The position numbers and the translations under genes are program-made. 20,993 bases of DNA from a virus. Of the stretch, positions 3,160 through 15,324 are shown one piece after another. Every line of letters starts with the position of its first letter. The stretch's first letter is position 1. The stretch covers positions 1-20,993 of the IMG/VR virus record IMGVR_UViG_3300037061_000016; one strand, 5' to 3'. The notes beneath the pieces were generated by a model. It saw only the letters and a program-made list of their open reading frames with translations, did not search any database and was not told the DNA's origin.

Positions 3160-4755
3160 ATGAAACGCATTGCATTTGCAGGCTTGGCTGTACTGGCCCT
3201 CGCCTCGACTCTGTTTGGCCAGAACCGGAGCAACTTCGCCGGCCGGTACGAGGCCATCGACTTTGGATATGGGGCGCCGGGGGTGCTGCCCGGCCCGCTG
3301 CGCATCGTCACCGGCTCGACGCTGACGAGTTCGACGTACACCATCACGCTGACCACGTCGAGGGTGACGACGGCGGATGGAACGGTGCTATTTCCGATCA
3401 CGACCACGACTCCGCTGCTGGTCGGTAGCAGCGGAAATTCGGAGACGGTGACGCCCACTGCGGTGAGTGGGTGTAACTACGATTCCGGCTACGGCGGATG
3501 TTCGGTCACTGCGGCGTTCACTTACGCGCATGGGAACGGCGATGCCGTGATGTCCGGCACGTTCGGATTGCAGGAGGCCATCAACTACGCGGCAGGCACG
3601 GGCGGATACGGAGCGCTGGTGAACGTTGATTCCAAATGGGCTGCGGCGGGCGGAACTTCCGCCATGATTTCGGTGGCGAATCCGACTTCTCTGGTCGCCA
3701 TCGAAGACACGCGCGCCACGCCGTTCCAGTTCTGGGCGATGGAACCAAACACGCTGTCGTCGTTGGCGGTGCCGACGACCTTGACGAGTGCGACGGTCTA
3801 CTCGGCAACGACCGGAACGGGAACCTGGACGGCGAGCGCCGTCTACGCCTGCGTGACCTACGTGGATGCGCTCGGCGGGGAAGGGCCTTGCAGCGCGACG
3901 TACAACTTCACGGCGACGGTAAGCATGCCAGTGACCTTCGTAAGTCCGGCGGCATCTACTGGGGCGGTCGGCTGGCGCGCTTACGCGGGAGCCACCTACG
4001 CCGGTGCTTATCTGCTGCCCATCACTTCCACGGCCTGCACGCTGAGCAATAAGCTCGTCACGGTGGCGGCTTGTGCCATCGGGTCGAATGCCACCTTCAC
4101 GGCCATCTACGCGACCACCACGGCGCTGTTGCCGCAGCCGACCTCTTCACCTGTCGTCAATGTGAATAGGCCGATGCCGCAGGGGCATACCACATTCGCC
4201 TATCAGCCGGTCATGGTGCCGTTCCCGTTCCAGGCGAACTACGGCCCCTTCCCGGCCTATGGAGCGCTGACGGCTGGACAGATCGCGGTGCTGGGCACGG
4301 CACAACTTCCGCCCGGCTTCCTGAACTCCGTCGGGCGCGCGTTACGTGTCACCGGAAAAGTGGCGCTGACCACGCTCAATACGGCCACGCTGCCCTACAT
4401 CACCTTGTCGCTCGGGTGGGCGGGCGGCGATACGGCGGGGCTGCCCGTGAGCGTCTGCGCGCTGGTGCCAGCGGCGGCTGGTGCCACCGGCACGGCAAAC
4501 GAGAGCTTCAGTTGCACGTTGACGATCAACGCCGTTGGAACGACTGCCGTCGGTTCGATCATGACGAATGGCTGGGAGAATACGGTGGCGTCAACAGGCG
4601 GTGCCTTGCTCGGTTCGACCATCGACACCGGGACGGCGGCCATCGGCTCGCTGGGTCTGTTCTCGCAGGACGCGCTGTACGTGATCTACACGAGCACGAC
4701 CAACGTGACCGCTGGTGAGCAACTGCTGGCGCTCAGCATCGAGACGTTGCAGTAG
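3160..4755 (+). CDS. Beta-rich structural-type protein with an N-terminal signal peptide
   Basis: 531 aa. AAGGAG at 3146-3151, eight bases before the ATG, supports the start. Residues 1-20 have the three parts of a Sec signal: MKR, then a hydrophobic core (IAFAGLAVLALA), then a polar end before QNRSN. No lipobox Cys is present, and the cleavage point (after A15 or G20) is unclear. The rest is Thr/Ser/Ala/Gly-rich with short alternating strands. A segment around residues 220-285 (AVYACVTYVDALGGEGPC, then VGWRAYAGATYAGAY) resembles immunoglobulin- or fibronectin-like repeats of phage tail proteins. The region after about residue 350 looks like a separate beta-sandwich. It sits between terminase and portal, which suggests a virion or surface protein; the export signal is unusual there. 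Exact function unknown. Confidence 0.8.
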   Translation: MKRIAFAGLAVLALASTLFGQNRSNFAGRYEAIDFGYGAPGVLPGPLRIVTGSTLTSSTYTITLTTSRVTTADGTVLFPITTTTPLLVGSSGNSETVTPTAVSGCNYDSGYGGCSVTAAFTYAHGNGDAVMSGTFGLQEAINYAAGTGGYGALVNVDSKWAAAGGTSAMISVANPTSLVAIEDTRATPFQFWAMEPNTLSSLAVPTTLTSATVYSATTGTGTWTASAVYACVTYVDALGGEGPCSATYNFTATVSMPVTFVSPAASTGAVGWRAYAGATYAGAYLLPITSTACTLSNKLVTVAACAIGSNATFTAIYATTTALLPQPTSSPVVNVNRPMPQGHTTFAYQPVMVPFPFQANYGPFPAYGALTAGQIAVLGTAQLPPGFLNSVGRALRVTGKVALTTLNTATLPYITLSLGWAGGDTAGLPVSVCALVPAAAGATGTANESFSCTLTINAVGTTAVGSIMTNGWENTVASTGGALLGSTIDTGTAAIGSLGLFSQDALYVIYTSTTNVTAGEQLLALSIETLQ

Positions 4756-9380: not shown

Positions 9381-10646
9381 ATGCCCGTAGGCAACGTGGC
9401 CGCTGCGGTCGGTATGCAGAAGGAGTATATCGATCCCAAGGTCCAGCAACTAATCGCGTCTTACTCCCGCCTTTACAAGCACATAAAGGTCAATACCAAA
9501 ATCAAGCCGGTCTCGAATCGTCCGGCCAAGATCCCCTTGCAGGTCCAGATGGGCGGCAAGGTGAGCGTCGGTAACTTCGACGGCGCAGCGCTCGGGCGCG
9601 GCTCCGGCCCCCAGTTGTCCAACATGAGTGTCTCGTGCGTCTCCTACGTTCAGGCGTCCGAATGGACTTCCCAGGCGGAGTGGACCACCGACAGCAACGA
9701 AAAGTCGGTCGAGGACTACGCCGCCCTGCTGCAATCCCAGCAGATGCAGACGATGGCGGGCTTCCTCGATGCGCTCACGCAGACGAATGGGTCCAATACC
9801 CTGGACACCGTGGTTTCCGTCAGCGGCAGCACGCTGACGGTGAGCAACCCGAACATGTTCATGTCGAATCAGGACGTGGACTTCTGGACGAACTACCTCG
9901 ATCAGGGCGGCTCGTACCTCGGCACTGGGACGATTCTCTCGCTGGACCCGATCAACATGGCCGTCGTGCTGACGGCTGCCCCGCCGGTCGGCGTCGGCGC
10001 TGGCACGCTCGTGCTGGTGCGCAACTCCAGCGGCGTAAGCAACTCAGGCTTCCTCGGACTGCGCGCCTGGAACATGGCGGGAAACACCGGACTTTACGGC
10101 AACATCCAGAAATCGGCCTACCCCGGCCTGTTCAACATCGCCAACATCAACGCGCCCGGCGCGCTGACTCCCGCCGTCGTGCGTGGCGTGCGCAACCTCA
10201 TCGCGCAGCACATGGGCCTGGAAAACGAAGAGAGCGCCAACCTGGTGCTTCATGGCAACCTGGACGCCATCACCGCTTGGGAGAACAACGCCATTCAGGT
10301 TCAGACCAACGAGTACAACATGATCCGGGGCGACCAGAACCCGGACTTCCTGAAGAAACGGCGCCCGGACACCATCGGCGGAATGCCGACGATCATCAAC
10401 GAACGCGCGAAGCCCGGCTACCTGGACTTCCTGCCCCTGGAGCACTACTTCCAGATCACCAGCAAGCCCCTGAGCCTGTACGACGTGAAGGGGCAAGTGG
10501 TTTTCCCGGCCTACGGGTCGGATGGCAGCGTGGCGACCGCCTACCTGATGTACATGGTCATCATGTGGCAGATGGTATCGGTCCAACCAGGTCTTAACGG
10601 CTACGTGAGTGGCTTCAACGCGCCTCGCTACCTCCTCGGGCATTAG
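9381..10646 (+). CDS. Major capsid protein (HK97-like fold, P22-type)
   Basis: 421 aa, close to the P22 coat length of 430. It builds the icosahedral shell. The start is supported by GAGGTG and by MPVGNVAAAV as a natural N-terminus. Residues about 10-60 form the long N-arm and helix (YIDPKVQQLIASYSRLYKHI). Residues about 135-215 are a Thr/Val/Ser-rich beta insertion (TVVSVSGSTLTVSNPN, later GTILSLDPINMAVVLTAAPP) that could be the counterpart of the P22 inserted domain. The later part has PAVVRGVRNLIAQHMGLENE and a LLHGNLDAI-like spine helix region, then RRPDTIGGMPTIIN and a hydrophobic C-terminus (YLMYMVIMW). Position after a scaffold supports the call. The family is inferred from pattern, not from a search. 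Confidence 0.85.
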   Translation: MPVGNVAAAVGMQKEYIDPKVQQLIASYSRLYKHIKVNTKIKPVSNRPAKIPLQVQMGGKVSVGNFDGAALGRGSGPQLSNMSVSCVSYVQASEWTSQAEWTTDSNEKSVEDYAALLQSQQMQTMAGFLDALTQTNGSNTLDTVVSVSGSTLTVSNPNMFMSNQDVDFWTNYLDQGGSYLGTGTILSLDPINMAVVLTAAPPVGVGAGTLVLVRNSSGVSNSGFLGLRAWNMAGNTGLYGNIQKSAYPGLFNIANINAPGALTPAVVRGVRNLIAQHMGLENEESANLVLHGNLDAITAWENNAIQVQTNEYNMIRGDQNPDFLKKRRPDTIGGMPTIINERAKPGYLDFLPLEHYFQITSKPLSLYDVKGQVVFPAYGSDGSVATAYLMYMVIMWQMVSVQPGLNGYVSGFNAPRYLLGH

Positions 10647-10659
10647 GATATTAAATCCT
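10645..10659 (+). repeat. Small inverted repeat after the coat stop
   Basis: AGGAT (10645-10649) and ATCCT (10655-10659) pair across ATTAA. The hairpin starts inside the TAG stop of the coat gene and is followed by CTTAT, not a T-tract, so it is a poor intrinsic terminator. It lies six bases before the larger hairpin in front of the homing endonuclease and could alternatively pair with the TCCT or AGGA there. Confidence 0.4.
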
Positions 10660-10664
10660 CTTAT

Positions 10665-10696
10665 CTGTGCTATCCTCCATAATCAGGACAGCACAG
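10665..10696 (+). promoter_or_regulatory. 12-bp hairpin hiding the homing endonuclease ribosome-binding site
   Basis: CTGTGCTATCCT (10665-10676) pairs with AGGACAGCACAG (10685-10696), with one A-C mismatch and the loop CCATAATC. The 3' arm contains the only Shine-Dalgarno candidate (AGGA, 10685-10688) and ends exactly one base before the ATG at 10697. Such a stem would hold back translation of the nuclease in long transcripts. Confidence 0.65.
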
Positions 10697-11392
10697 ATGG
10701 GATGGCCGAAAGGTAGACCGCAGCCGCCGATGACTGCGGAGACGAGAGAGAAGCTGGCAGCGGCACAAAAGGTCGCATGGACGCCAGAACGAAGAGAAAA
10801 GGCGAAGGCTCTACGTGGAGAGAAGCACCCAAATTTCGGCCGCAAGAATTCTTCAGCGGAAATCGAGCGGAAACGTCAGTGGATGCTGGCGAATAATCCG
10901 ATGCGCGACGGGCATACGGATGAGTCCAGGACGAAAATGTCACTGGCTCATCGCAATATGCTTGCCGAGATGGACCCGAGACTTGTTAAGTACGGAATTT
11001 CTCCCGAAACCTACAGAGCCGAACTGGCTGTTGGAAACCGTTGGTGCTGCAAGGGCAAGCACTTCGTGCCTATCGGTGGCAGCGGTCGGCCGCATGGTGC
11101 GTGCGCTCAGTGTCGCCGCGAATCAGGCGAGGCGCGGCCGTTACATCTTCGATCAAAATATGGCGTGGATCAGGCGTGGTATGATGCCAAGTTCGCCGAG
11201 CAGGGAGGCGTTTGCGCCATTTGTGGCAGCGCTGATCTGCATGGTCGAAAGTATCTGGCAATCGATCACAACCACGGCACGGGCGCGAGTCGCGGACTGC
11301 TTTGCATCCGCTGCAACGCAGCGCTCGCCAGGATCGAGAGTATTCCCGACTGGGGAATCCGCGCCACTGTCTACCTGGACTGCTATCGCTAA
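10697..11392 (+). CDS. Homing endonuclease: NUMOD3 repeats fused to a T4 endonuclease VII-type HNH domain
   Basis: 231 aa from ATG 10697. GTG 10667 would also be in frame, but it lies inside the 5' arm of a hairpin. Residues about 10-85 hold NUMOD3-like DNA-binding repeats (KHPNFGRKNSSAEIERKRQW, then DESRTKMSLAHR). A middle patch with Cys117/Cys118 and CAQC looks like a degenerate zinc finger. The C-terminal domain matches recombination endonuclease VII: YGVDQAWYDAKFAEQGGVC with Cys173 and Cys176, Asp190-His191-Asn192-His193, GLLCIRCN with Cys203 and Cys206. All expected metal and catalytic residues are present, so it looks active. It sits between the coat gene and a head gene without belonging to the assembly set, as free-standing homing genes do. 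Its codon use is somewhat more AT-rich than its neighbours. Confidence 0.85.
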   Translation: MGWPKGRPQPPMTAETREKLAAAQKVAWTPERREKAKALRGEKHPNFGRKNSSAEIERKRQWMLANNPMRDGHTDESRTKMSLAHRNMLAEMDPRLVKYGISPETYRAELAVGNRWCCKGKHFVPIGGSGRPHGACAQCRRESGEARPLHLRSKYGVDQAWYDAKFAEQGGVCAICGSADLHGRKYLAIDHNHGTGASRGLLCIRCNAALARIESIPDWGIRATVYLDCYR

Positions 11393-11399
11393 CCTTCAG

Positions 11400-11425
11400 G
11401 GGGTCGCATGTTAGAATACGACCCC
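11400..11425 (+). promoter_or_regulatory. Hairpin around the start of the gene after the endonuclease
   Basis: GGGGTCG (11400-11406) is perfectly complementary to CGACCCC (11419-11425), with a 12-base loop that contains the ATG at 11408. The G-run of the Shine-Dalgarno (AGGGGG, 11398-11403) is within the 5' arm. Seven GC-rich pairs, so it could limit translation of this gene. Confidence 0.5.
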
Positions 11426-12091
11426 AAAGTCAACCTTCGCCATTATCCGCATCCGATGGCGAAGTATGGGCTGAACCCGTTCGGGGAACCGCTCTACCGG
11501 ATCGTGCTCGCATCCTCGCGGCGAAACATCTGCGGCGGCCCATGGGCGGACGGCGCGGAGTACCACTGGGTGAAGACCTACCCGGAAATCTCATTCCCGT
11601 GGATTCTGGAGCGCTGGCATAGCGCTCTGGAATTCTCGGGCATGCCGCGCGAAGTGTGGGACCGGACCATGCTCGCCAACAGTGGTCCGTACCCAACGCG
11701 CGGAGAGTACAACCTCGCGTGGGTGTTTGACATCGGGGTTGGCGAAGAGAACTTGGACAATATCATCGCGGCGTGTGAGCGTGGACGGAGCCATTCGGCG
11801 GCGGATCTTCACCGGCAGCACGAAACGGCGTATCGAAAGGAAGAGAAGGCGACCCAAGACGCCTGTTATCGGGAGATTCGGGATTCCTACAGCGCCTTCG
11901 GAACGCGCCCGATGGCGGGGTATGGCGGCGGCCGGGGAACCAAGACGCTGCCCGCGATGTTGAGCGCGAACGAACTTGGGCTGCCGATCCCGAACCGGCA
12001 GCGCCCGGCGGCGGCGCCAATCCGCAACCGGCGGACGGCGGACGTGCGGGACATTAAGACCAGAAACACGATTCTTTCAGGAGCGATCTAA
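11408..12091 (+). CDS. Uncharacterised protein of the head region
   Basis: 227 aa, not recognised. The N-terminal part is rich in Pro, Tyr and Trp (YPHPMAKYGLNPFGEPLYR, later EYHWVKTYPEISFPWIL). A helical middle follows (about 115-160; GEENLDNIIAACERG, then DLHRQHETAYRKEEK), and the C-terminal 60 residues are basic and Gly/Arg/Pro-rich (AGYGGGRGTKTLP, RQRPAAAPIRNRR), probably flexible. The frame is intact after the homing endonuclease and its SD is AGGGGG. Its stop overlaps the next ATG as TAATG. Placement between coat and connectors suggests a head-completion or minor capsid role, but nothing in the sequence proves it. Confidence 0.75.
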   Translation: MLEYDPKVNLRHYPHPMAKYGLNPFGEPLYRIVLASSRRNICGGPWADGAEYHWVKTYPEISFPWILERWHSALEFSGMPREVWDRTMLANSGPYPTRGEYNLAWVFDIGVGEENLDNIIAACERGRSHSAADLHRQHETAYRKEEKATQDACYREIRDSYSAFGTRPMAGYGGGRGTKTLPAMLSANELGLPIPNRQRPAAAPIRNRRTADVRDIKTRNTILSGAI

Positions 12092-12873: not shown

Positions 12874-13680
12874 ATGCCAGTCACCGCGCCCTATGACGTG
12901 CTCGAAACCGCCGTGAACTTCGCGAGGACGCGGGCGAACGATGCCATCCAAGTCGTCGGCGGCGACACGCTGACGGATACGGCTGTCTTCACGCTCACCA
13001 TCATCAACGCGGCATGGCGCCGGATTCAAGCCATTCTCGGCAACTATGGCATTCCCAGCTTGGACCGGAGGGTTACAATCCCCTCGGTCCCGCTGGTAAC
13101 CTCCGCCGACTACGGCAGCCAGACCTATCTGTCCTGGACCGGGTTCTTTGATGGGACGACGCTGCAAAGCTCCCCCGTGCTGCCCCAGGATTTTATCTGT
13201 CCGCTGGGGCTTGCGGAGCGCGCCTCCGCTGGCGGCACGACGTTCTACCCGATGGACAAGTGCCTCAAGGGAATGCCCACCGTGGTCAAGGGCGCGCTGA
13301 ATCGGATGTGGGAGTGGAGGCAGGACGCCATCTACATGCCGGGTGCCACGGTGGCAACGGATATCCTCCTCCGGTACGCCGGGTTCCTGGCGGATTTCGT
13401 GGCGCCGGGGACGACGGCGTTCAGCGCGCAGAACATCCCGATCATGCGCGCGGCCTCTCCGCTGGCGTGGATGGTCGCCGCCGAATTCTGCAAAGCGCGC
13501 GGCGATGTGGACGCGGCCTATCTTGAGCAGAAGGCCGTGGACGAGTGTGACTTCGTCTTCAACCGAGACATCCGCGATGAGCGATCGATCTCGAAACCGG
13601 CGGAGCGCGGGAAACTGGTTGACCCGACAACGCCCACTCTTGGCCCGGCTGGCCCGCGCGGCCCGCAGAAAGCAGGATAG
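12874..13680 (+). CDS. Connector-like protein, paralogue 1 of 3
   Basis: 268 aa. First of three neighbouring genes whose products share one plan: an Arg/Asn N-terminal helix (FARTRANDAIQ), NAAWRRIQ, a SxPxxxSAD segment (SVPLVTSADYGSQ), LPQDF-x2-PL, WEWR-xDAIYMPGA (WEWR at 146-149), DILLRY, and NRDIRDERSISKPAERG at the end. Copy 1 alone finishes in a Pro/Gly tail (PTTPTLGPAGPRGPQKAG). Only three bases separate it from the preceding gene, with a weak GGAAAG ribosome-binding site. Place between head and tail genes suggests a neck, head-completion or tail-adaptor protein; I cannot name a family. The paralogy is directly visible; the role is inferred. Confidence 0.75.
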   Translation: MPVTAPYDVLETAVNFARTRANDAIQVVGGDTLTDTAVFTLTIINAAWRRIQAILGNYGIPSLDRRVTIPSVPLVTSADYGSQTYLSWTGFFDGTTLQSSPVLPQDFICPLGLAERASAGGTTFYPMDKCLKGMPTVVKGALNRMWEWRQDAIYMPGATVATDILLRYAGFLADFVAPGTTAFSAQNIPIMRAASPLAWMVAAEFCKARGDVDAAYLEQKAVDECDFVFNRDIRDERSISKPAERGKLVDPTTPTLGPAGPRGPQKAG

Positions 13681-13683
13681 AAA

Positions 13684-14529
13684 ATGCCCGTCACTCTACC
13701 GCCTTATGATCTGGTAAAAGACGTTCTGAACGCTGCAAAGGTCAGGCTGAACGATAGAATCGATACCACGGCTGCGGTTAGCGGTCAACTGCTAGACAAT
13801 ACGAATCCATTTTCACTGACGGCTCTCAATGCTGCGTGGCGAAAACTCCAGGAAGTGCTAGCGGATTTCGGTTATACCGGATCGAAACAGGAGCTTTCCT
13901 TCACATCCGTGCCGGCGGCCACGTCAGCCGATCCGATGATCCAGTCCTACTTCGACTTCAATGGATACAACAACTCAGGGACGTACAACACCGGCTTTGC
14001 GCTACCGCAAGGATTCATCCGCCCACTGAAACTCTGGGAGAGGATCACGAGTAGCACGGTGCTGATGACCGAGATGGATAATCCACTGAACGGACTTCCG
14101 AAAGTGCCGAAGCAGCTCTGGAATCGGCAATGGGAGTGGCGCGCCGATCAACTGTGGGTGCCCGGAGCGACGAGCATCACGGACATCAACATTCGCTACA
14201 TTCAGATGATCGTCGATTTCTCGGATGTTGGCGCTGTCCCCGGTCCGAATCAGATCGCCAGCACGCCGTGGTTCGGGCAGCCGGTACCAATCATGCGCTG
14301 CCTGGACGCGCTGGCGGATTTCCTCTGCCGTGAAATCGCCATCGCCGTCAAGAATCAGGAGGCCGCGATGGCCTTCGAGTCGAGCGCGAAAGGGAACGCG
14401 CAGCTTATCGTCAATCGGGACACGCAGCAGGGCAAGAGCATCGGAAAGTCGGCGGAGCTTGGCCGGATGCGCGATCCATTCACCCCGGTGCAGGGCGGAC
14501 CTTCGACTCAGGAGGTCAGGAGATCGTAA
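13684..14529 (+). CDS. Connector-like protein, paralogue 2 of 3
   Basis: 281 aa, sharing blocks with its neighbours: AKVRLNDRI, NAAWRKLQ, SVPAATSADPMIQS, LPQGF-x2-PL, GLPKVPKQLWNRQWEWR (WEWR at 150-153) followed by ADQLWVPGA, DINIRY, IVDF, and NRDTQQGKSIGKSAELG. AGGA precedes its start. The copies are clearly homologous but diverged through most of their length, so the duplication is old and each is probably specialised. It is intact, with no frameshift. Candidate neck ring or head-tail adaptor from its position. Confidence 0.75.
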   Translation: MPVTLPPYDLVKDVLNAAKVRLNDRIDTTAAVSGQLLDNTNPFSLTALNAAWRKLQEVLADFGYTGSKQELSFTSVPAATSADPMIQSYFDFNGYNNSGTYNTGFALPQGFIRPLKLWERITSSTVLMTEMDNPLNGLPKVPKQLWNRQWEWRADQLWVPGATSITDINIRYIQMIVDFSDVGAVPGPNQIASTPWFGQPVPIMRCLDALADFLCREIAIAVKNQEAAMAFESSAKGNAQLIVNRDTQQGKSIGKSAELGRMRDPFTPVQGGPSTQEVRRS

Positions 14530-15324
14530 GTGCCTGTCATTCCTCCGCCCACCACGAATTTCGATAGCCTGACTTCGATTCTGAACGCGACCAAGGTGCG
14601 TTTAAACGAAGAGGTTCCGTCGCTGATGGCGGTGAGCGGGAAAATCCTAGAGAACGGCCAGTATTTCACTCTTCAGAGCGTCAATACCGCGTGGCGGAAG
14701 CTGGTGGAGCACCTTGTGACTGTGGGCTACTCGGCACTGACGAGCGAGTGTATCATCCCATCGTTTCCGATAGTCGCTTCGACCGACCCGGCGTCGCAAT
14801 GCTGGTTATCGCTAGCCGGATGTTCGGACAGCCTTTCGTATTACCAGACGCCGGCACTGCCGTCCGATTTCACGCACCCGCTTGCCATCTGGGAGCGCTG
14901 GTCGAACCAGAATGCGAGTTTCCCGGGGCAGCCAATGGAAAAGATCCTGGACGGTCTGCCAACGCCGCAGAAAACCGGCTGGATGGGCTACTGGGAGTGG
15001 CGAAACGAAGCGATCTACCTGCCCGGCTCACTTGTGGTCGAGGATCTTCGAATCCGGTATGCTCGGAACATCCAGGACTTCGCCGACTCGGGCGCGACCC
15101 AGTGGTTCGCTTCCACAGTACCGCTGATTCGATGCTCCGATCCGTTCTCGCTATTCCTGTGCGCGGAATTCGCATCCTCCCGAGGGCAGGAAGCTTTGGC
15201 GCAGCGATTCGAAGATCGGGCGATCACGGCAGCGTGCAAATTGACCAACCGCGATGTGCGCGCTGACGAACGGGTGGATATCCGGCGCCGAAGCGCATGG
15301 AGCCAAGGGTCCGAGTACCTCTAA
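14530..15324 (+). CDS. Connector-like protein, paralogue 3 of 3
   Basis: 264 aa with a GTG start directly after the TAA of copy 2; an AGGAG (14518-14522) lies seven bases upstream. Shared blocks: ATKVRLNEE, NTAWRKL, SFPIVASTDPASQ, LPSDFTHPLAIWERW, GYWEWRNEAIYLPGS (WEWR at 155-158), DLRIRY, QDFADSGATQW, NRDVRADERVDIRRRS. Copies 2 and 3 share details that copy 1 lacks (an A-x-VSG segment near residue 30, a KVRLN motif and a SGATQW/GAV insertion), so they may be closer to each other. Intact; the C-terminus is short and lacks the tail of copy 1. Role inferred as for the other two. Confidence 0.75.
   Translation: MPVIPPPTTNFDSLTSILNATKVRLNEEVPSLMAVSGKILENGQYFTLQSVNTAWRKLVEHLVTVGYSALTSECIIPSFPIVASTDPASQCWLSLAGCSDSLSYYQTPALPSDFTHPLAIWERWSNQNASFPGQPMEKILDGLPTPQKTGWMGYWEWRNEAIYLPGSLVVEDLRIRYARNIQDFADSGATQWFASTVPLIRCSDPFSLFLCAEFASSRGQEALAQRFEDRAITAACKLTNRDVRADERVDIRRRSAWSQGSEYL

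Follow-up and report, generated by a model that had tools for sequence, protein, structure and literature searches.

A probable translational lock over the start codon of a free-standing Endonuclease VII-type homing endonuclease gene inserted behind a phage capsid gene

The window, as the whole stretch of 20,993 nucleotides analysed here is called (IMG/VR virus record IMGVR_UViG_3300037061_000016), harbors a free-standing homing endonuclease gene directly behind the gene for a major capsid protein, and both the ribosome-binding site and the start codon of this endonuclease gene lie in a stable predicted hairpin. Judging from RNA folding and from analogy with characterized phage systems, the hairpin is probably a cis-acting translational lock carried by a free-standing homing cassette of the Endonuclease VII (EndoVII) type. 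Comparison with near-isogenic phages that do not carry the gene indicates that the hairpin arrived with the insert, and a diverged phage with a homologous nuclease at the same junction possesses a start-codon hairpin of a different sequence.

The endonuclease gene and its start-codon hairpin

The endonuclease gene (10697–11392, + strand, 231 aa) encodes a protein of the NUMOD3 plus Endonuclease VII (DHHRN) type, with Pfam matches to the C-terminal Endonuclease VII domain (PF02945, E 3.4e-15) and to NUMOD3 (PF07460, E 4.6e-8) and a PHROG match to phrog_2633 (E 4e-23). The residues C173, C176, D190, H191, H193, R199, C203, C206 and N207 are invariant across 9 phage EndoVII proteins, and the endonuclease shows the D-H...R...N motif of EndoVII together with its zinc Cys pairs; an HNH label was rejected because Pfam matches only Endonuclease_7 and NUMOD3. 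The ATG at 10697 is the likely start of the gene; a GTG at 10667, inside the 5′ arm of the hairpin, would give a slightly longer reading frame without a Shine–Dalgarno (SD) sequence. NUMOD3-like stretches resembling the N-terminal part of the protein were also found in reading frames at other loci (L016–L022), which by eye look like GIY-YIG and HNH-type homing nucleases.

The hairpin comprises a 5′ arm (ATCTGTGCTATCCT, 10663–10676, + strand), a loop of 8 nt (10677–10684, + strand; recovered by repeat search and by folding) and a 3′ arm (AGGACAGCACAGAT, 10685–10698, + strand). In the repeat search the two arms are 14 nt each, lie 8 nt apart and are 93% complementary (13 of 14 positions paired, the sole mismatch being A10672/C10689), and pairing extends outward to 10657 on the left and to 10705 on the right. 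The SD-like AGGA (10685–10688) lies in the 3′ arm, 8 nt upstream of the ATG. The predicted stem includes Watson–Crick pairs at the first two bases (A and U) of the start codon and runs on into codon 2. The earlier note had placed here a 12-bp hairpin that contains the ribosome-binding site and ends at the ATG: the hairpin is present with the site in its 3′ arm and proved slightly larger than described, and it does reach the ATG but, rather than ending there, takes in the first two bases of the start codon and enters the second.

Folding of the 50 nt from 10656 to 10705 gives a single stem with ΔG −25.7 and z −5.67, a value equalled by 0 of 200 shuffles, and the longer fold proposed as a check (10640–10720, 81 nt) again yields a stable stem (ΔG −30, z −3.64). 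Additionally, the hairpin is the sole repeat with 14-bp arms (at most 1 mismatch, loop 3–10) among the 20,993 bases of the window, and dinucleotide shuffling of this sequence, carried out 30 times over its full length, produced 1 such repeat in total; together with the fold z-score, this bears out the earlier statement that the fit to the start codon is unlikely by chance. On read-through RNA, the modelled cost of opening positions −12 to +3 of the endonuclease start is 14.8 kcal/mol, which exceeds that of all 12 other window genes tested (2.5–13.2) and lies above 95% of 167 control genes, about 5% of the controls being equal or larger. The SD sequence and the AUG are thus both predicted to be inside a stable hairpin on read-through RNA. 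The exact hairpin pattern was matched across IMG/VR in one other contig (3300037387_000022), which carries the same allele, and no Rfam covariance model matched the window or 8 loci up to E 1.

Insertion into the capsid junction

The upstream neighbor (9381–10646, + strand, 421 aa) was identified as the major capsid protein gene by homology. The window protein has no direct PHROG or Pfam match; it is 59–60% identical to the capsid proteins of three related loci (L026, L028 and L030), and that of L026 matches the major head protein phrog_14242 (E 2.6e-5). Two IMG/VR contigs (L004 and L005) are 99.9% identical to the window on both flanks and lack 10647–11407 (+ strand), so that blastn joins them around this inserted homing cassette; at their junction only 5 nt separate the capsid stop from the next ATG. 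Over its final 43 bp (10604–10646, + strand) the capsid gene diverges abruptly, with 23 of 43 positions differing from L004/L005, whereas in the 5,223 bp preceding this tract there are 4 differences from L004 and 6 from L005. The tract matches distant phages (L030–L032) at 32 of 43 positions and the near-isogenic relatives at 20 of 43, although the capsid proteins of those distant phages are only about 60% identical overall to that of the window. By this pattern, the divergent tract beside the endonuclease gene is a co-conversion footprint.

Because near-isogenic empty alleles exist and the 43-bp divergent tract is so abrupt, the cassette is, by comparison of these alleles, a recent homing insertion that separates the capsid gene from its downstream neighbor. 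Empty alleles together with co-converted flanks mark the endonuclease gene as mobile at the level of sequence comparison, in line with the earlier claim that it had just entered the coat region. The occupied allele is also carried by the second contig, 3300037387_000022, which argues against a chimeric assembly. Of the related capsid loci found in IMG/VR, all but two are empty, the exceptions being one with the allele of the window and one with a diverged cassette (L026). In the empty alleles the capsid stop is followed after 4–8 nt by the next ATG, and none of them has a hairpin at the junction; since they hold nothing but those few nucleotides there, the hairpin belongs to the insert and came with it, as far as allele comparison goes. 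With an occupied and an empty allele that are near-isogenic, and with the 43-bp co-conversion tract, homing and the lock are both open to direct testing.

A homologous cassette in a diverged phage

A diverged phage (L026, 3300044824_000031) carries a homologous nuclease at the same junction (33% amino acid identity, E 6e-27). Its nuclease gene is likewise preceded by a stem, here of about 20 bp, which ends at the A of the ATG and has GGAGG/AGGA in its 3′ arm (ΔG −33, z −5.38, 0 of 200 shuffles as good). The sequence of this hairpin cannot be aligned with that of the window, and the stability of the two is equal; no hairpin was found in two near relatives of L026 without the nuclease gene (L027 and L033). 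Between these two alleles the structure and not the sequence has been kept, which is, on sequence comparison, what selection on pairing leaves. Compensatory changes in related phages had been proposed as a test of the hairpin, and the finding comes close to it in that L026 keeps a start-codon hairpin of different sequence; column-by-column covariation for the exact window hairpin cannot be counted because the collections searched contain two independent occupied alleles of this lineage only (the window and L026).

The same comparison bears on a reading of the repeat at the DNA level, in which the palindrome would be an operator or recognition site of the endonuclease, serving autorepression, or part of the homing site. 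There is a precedent in I-TevI, a transcriptional autorepressor that acts through an operator upstream of its own gene (cited in PMC3014915, PMC2988022). However, the repeat of the homologue in L026 differs from that of the window in sequence, length and loop, and the empty target alleles have no such palindrome, which makes this reading very improbable.

Start-codon hairpins among EndoVII genes

A survey was made of 80 IMG/VR EndoVII loci, all of them metagenomic contigs, in which the region −55 to +5 was folded at the best-scoring start codon (a heuristic choice) and other genes of the same loci served as controls. Prokaryote genome scans gave no relative, or mostly actinobacterial EndoVII genes, which were left out of the survey. 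EndoVII genes showed a mean z of −2.01 with 25% below −3, compared with −0.12 and 4% in the controls; in clusters at 50% identity, z was below −3 in 9 of 38 EndoVII clusters and in 7 of 114 controls (Fisher p 0.005, Mann–Whitney p 0.0009). With the window and L026 left out, the enrichment persists at 50% clustering (p 0.025) and is gone at a looser 35% clustering (1/10), which leaves too few groups; single-linkage clustering at 40% was not retained, as it lumped every EndoVII protein together. The same fold method recovered two positive controls, T4 gene 49 (z −3.4) and I-TevII (z −5.9). The idea that all EndoVII genes carry such a hairpin was rejected, as most are without one, including isolate-phage genes that overlap the upstream gene.

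The hairpins found in the survey are unrelated in sequence, and in several of them the SD sequence lies in the 3′ arm (L050, L053, L055 and L096). One family (L055/L096/L087) shows two-sided changes at several pairs of the stem and retains the pairing (U-A/C-G, U-A/A-U). For the X/Y hairpin families, MAFFT slips by one base and RNAalifold consequently reports only 2 two-sided pairs, and the arms were compared directly. L050 and L055/L096 have related capsid loci which at the same site hold different EndoVII genes with different start-codon hairpins. The L055-type family (L055, L060, L070, L071, L074, L087, L096, L099, L102–L106 and L109) follows a Mu gpT-like capsid gene with relatives in Caulobacter phage RW, and directly before its EndoVII start has a strong stem with GGAGGAG or TGGGGG, then a T-run and then the ATG; from its sequence, this stem looks like a terminator and a ribosome-binding-site lock at once. 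In Gordonia phage SteveFrench (L196:1358–1440) a long strong stem stands directly after the major capsid stop and before the EndoVII gene. No stem was found at the annotated start codon of this gene, and the start may be mis-annotated.

The upstream gene encodes a capsid protein in 6 of the 9 hairpin clusters compared with 2 of the 29 others (p 0.0007; neighbors called by PHROGs and, for the window, by homology). This association may be adaptive; it was held back as proof of adaptation since the capsid genes of relatives without EndoVII often precede terminator-like hairpins. It could partly reflect 3′ elements of capsid genes, and by the same token the window stem might be such an element, a terminator or mRNA stabilizer of the capsid gene whose overlap with the ribosome-binding site is incidental. 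Capsid genes of EndoVII-less relatives from other families (L190–L193) do precede hairpins, some with U-runs, and U-runs also follow the stem in several hairpin-bearing EndoVII genes (L055, L096). In L190, L191 and L193, however, the capsid hairpin lies away from the SD sequence of the next gene, whereas the window stem covers the start codon itself. The confounder does not apply to the window because its empty alleles have no stem behind the capsid gene. An intrinsic terminator was rejected for the window stem, given that it has no U-run on either strand and a terminator scan returned 0 terminator-like sites on either strand. A capsid 3′ element is thus an improbable account of this stem.

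Proposed translational control

In the preferred reading, the cassette, whose homing to the capsid junction replaced the 3′-terminal 43 bp of the capsid gene by co-conversion, carries a translational lock. On transcripts reading through from the capsid gene, the SD sequence and the AUG would be buried in a stem of about 14–18 bp and 30S subunits would rarely load, and the structure and the T4 precedents suggest that little nuclease would be made despite abundant mRNA. The stem starts about 10–16 nt past the capsid stop, so ribosomes finishing the capsid gene would not be expected to open it. Here the RNA that covers the gene is presumably none other than the late capsid mRNA. The modelled fold and the T4 analogy suggest that repression on capsid transcripts would be constitutive, which may, as the earlier note proposed, protect the phage from the nuclease. 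The earlier proposal that the hairpin blocks translation is supported in that a stable stem does sit on the SD sequence and the start codon, and the block itself stays a prediction. One point counts against a strict version: the lock cannot be complete without idling the gene, since behind a complete lock the nuclease could not act. The lock might be released when the stem now and then breathes, or through a weak internal promoter giving transcripts without the 5′ arm.

A long near-perfect stem between two cistrons could also be an RNase III-type processing site at which the nuclease mRNA would be cut away from the capsid mRNA. Cleavage of the stem would, however, remove the 5′ arm and unlock the ribosome-binding site rather than silence it. 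About 14–18 bp is short for RNase III, and processing appears most unlikely here.

The internal promoter deserves separate consideration, as it would turn the lock into a temporal switch like that of I-TevI: a promoter with its −10 element in the 5′ arm would give rise to short, translated RNAs that lack this arm, while the capsid read-through RNA stays locked. A putative extended −10-like element (TGCTATCCT, 10668–10676, + strand) does lie in the 5′ arm, and a transcript starting at about 10683 would omit that arm and keep the AGGA, with the modelled opening cost falling from 14.8 to 1.3 kcal/mol. L026 carries TACAAT, and at another locus (L044), where an EndoVII gene follows a probable capsid gene, a consensus TGTTATAAT occupies the same relative position (p 0.004). 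On the other hand, TGCTATCCT reaches only p 0.057 by shuffling in the window, and a sigma-70 consensus scan finds no promoter in 10400–11600. An internal promoter was rejected as a general rule, the combined p over 12 hairpin clusters being 0.18. As a promoter the element in the 5′ arm is therefore only suggestive, and a temporal switch in the window can be entertained as a possibility with the balance against it. At L044 (1220–1280) the EndoVII ATG is covered by a hairpin whose 5′ arm overlaps the extended −10, and by its sequence this locus is the best candidate for a T4-style switch.

The downstream gene and a second hairpin

The gene downstream of the insert (11408–12091, + strand, 227 aa) has no Pfam or PHROG match; in empty alleles it follows the capsid stop by 4–8 nt, and its translation is probably coupled to that of the capsid gene. 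In the window a second, weaker hairpin (GGGGUCG...CGACCCC, 11400–11425, + strand; ΔG −14.7) is predicted from pairing of the insert's right end with codons 5–7 of this gene, covering the gene's SD sequence and ATG. It is also found in L026 (about 4034–4062), with the stem sequence kept, and is absent from empty alleles; for the two occupied alleles the modelled opening cost at the start of this gene comes to 13.2 and 16.1 kcal/mol, against 4.3–8.2 for the empty ones. Given its modest fold z-score (−1.3), this second hairpin is a lead only. The cassette might have a lock at each end, the neighbor then being translated mainly by ribosomes that finish the endonuclease and so becoming a translational hostage, which on these modelled folds seems unlikely. 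If true, any silencing or truncation of the nuclease would cost the phage a gene of its own, and the selfish element would be stabilized. Further along, between the small post-capsid genes and a reading frame of 1260 aa, lie three tandem paralogous genes of about 264–281 aa (12874–13680, 13684–14529 and 14530–15324), neighbors among them being 37–38% identical.

Comparison with known systems

The founding, proven EndoVII-type homing endonuclease is F-CphI of cyanophage S-PM2 (PMC6083498). It is likewise a free-standing DHHRN enzyme, and its D101, H102, R110 and N118 have the same spacing as D190, H191, R199 and N207 of the window protein (PMC6083498). Unlike the window protein it has no N-terminal NUMOD3 region; its gene adjoins psbA, and at the annotated start (L009) there is no hairpin on the ribosome-binding site (z −1.75), its stem lying over 30 nt ahead of the start codon. 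T4 gene 49, which encodes Endonuclease VII, combines the same nuclease fold family with a hairpin on the ribosome-binding site (listed in PMC3014915), but it is the phage's own Holliday-junction resolvase and not a mobile insertion, and its hairpin is unrelated in sequence.

Further close parallels are I-TevI, I-TevII, I-TevIII and segB of T4 and mobE of Aeh1, homing endonuclease genes whose SD sequence lies, as here, in a stable hairpin on read-through RNA (PMC2988022, PMC3014915). In the window the AUG is buried as well, and mobE and segB are free-standing like the window gene (PMC2988022, PMC3014915). In T4 the hairpin keeps early and middle read-through RNA silent, and the ribosome-binding site is freed by a late promoter that lies within or next to the hairpin (PMC2988022, PMC3014915). 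Stems of this kind reduce the synthesis of lysozyme in T4 about 100-fold and restrain I-TevI, and the same control is shown or implied for free-standing homing genes by mobE and segB (PMC3014915, PMC2988022). Deletion of the I-TevI hairpin left viability unharmed and harmed splicing of the td intron (PMC2988022, PMC3014915).

The T4 and Aeh1 systems differ from the window in that they involve GIY-YIG or HNH nucleases and, in T4, hairpins with a late promoter, whereas the window has an EndoVII/NUMOD3 nuclease inserted after the capsid gene of a non-T4 phage and a hairpin in which a −10-like element is the only candidate promoter. Hairpin control of homing endonucleases was established in T4-like phages, in which it postpones expression until late in infection. 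The present comparison points to structurally equivalent, sequence-unrelated locks on EndoVII-type homing genes that follow capsid genes in phages unrelated to T4, and suggests that silencing on a highly expressed late mRNA is a general condition for tolerating such genes in that position.
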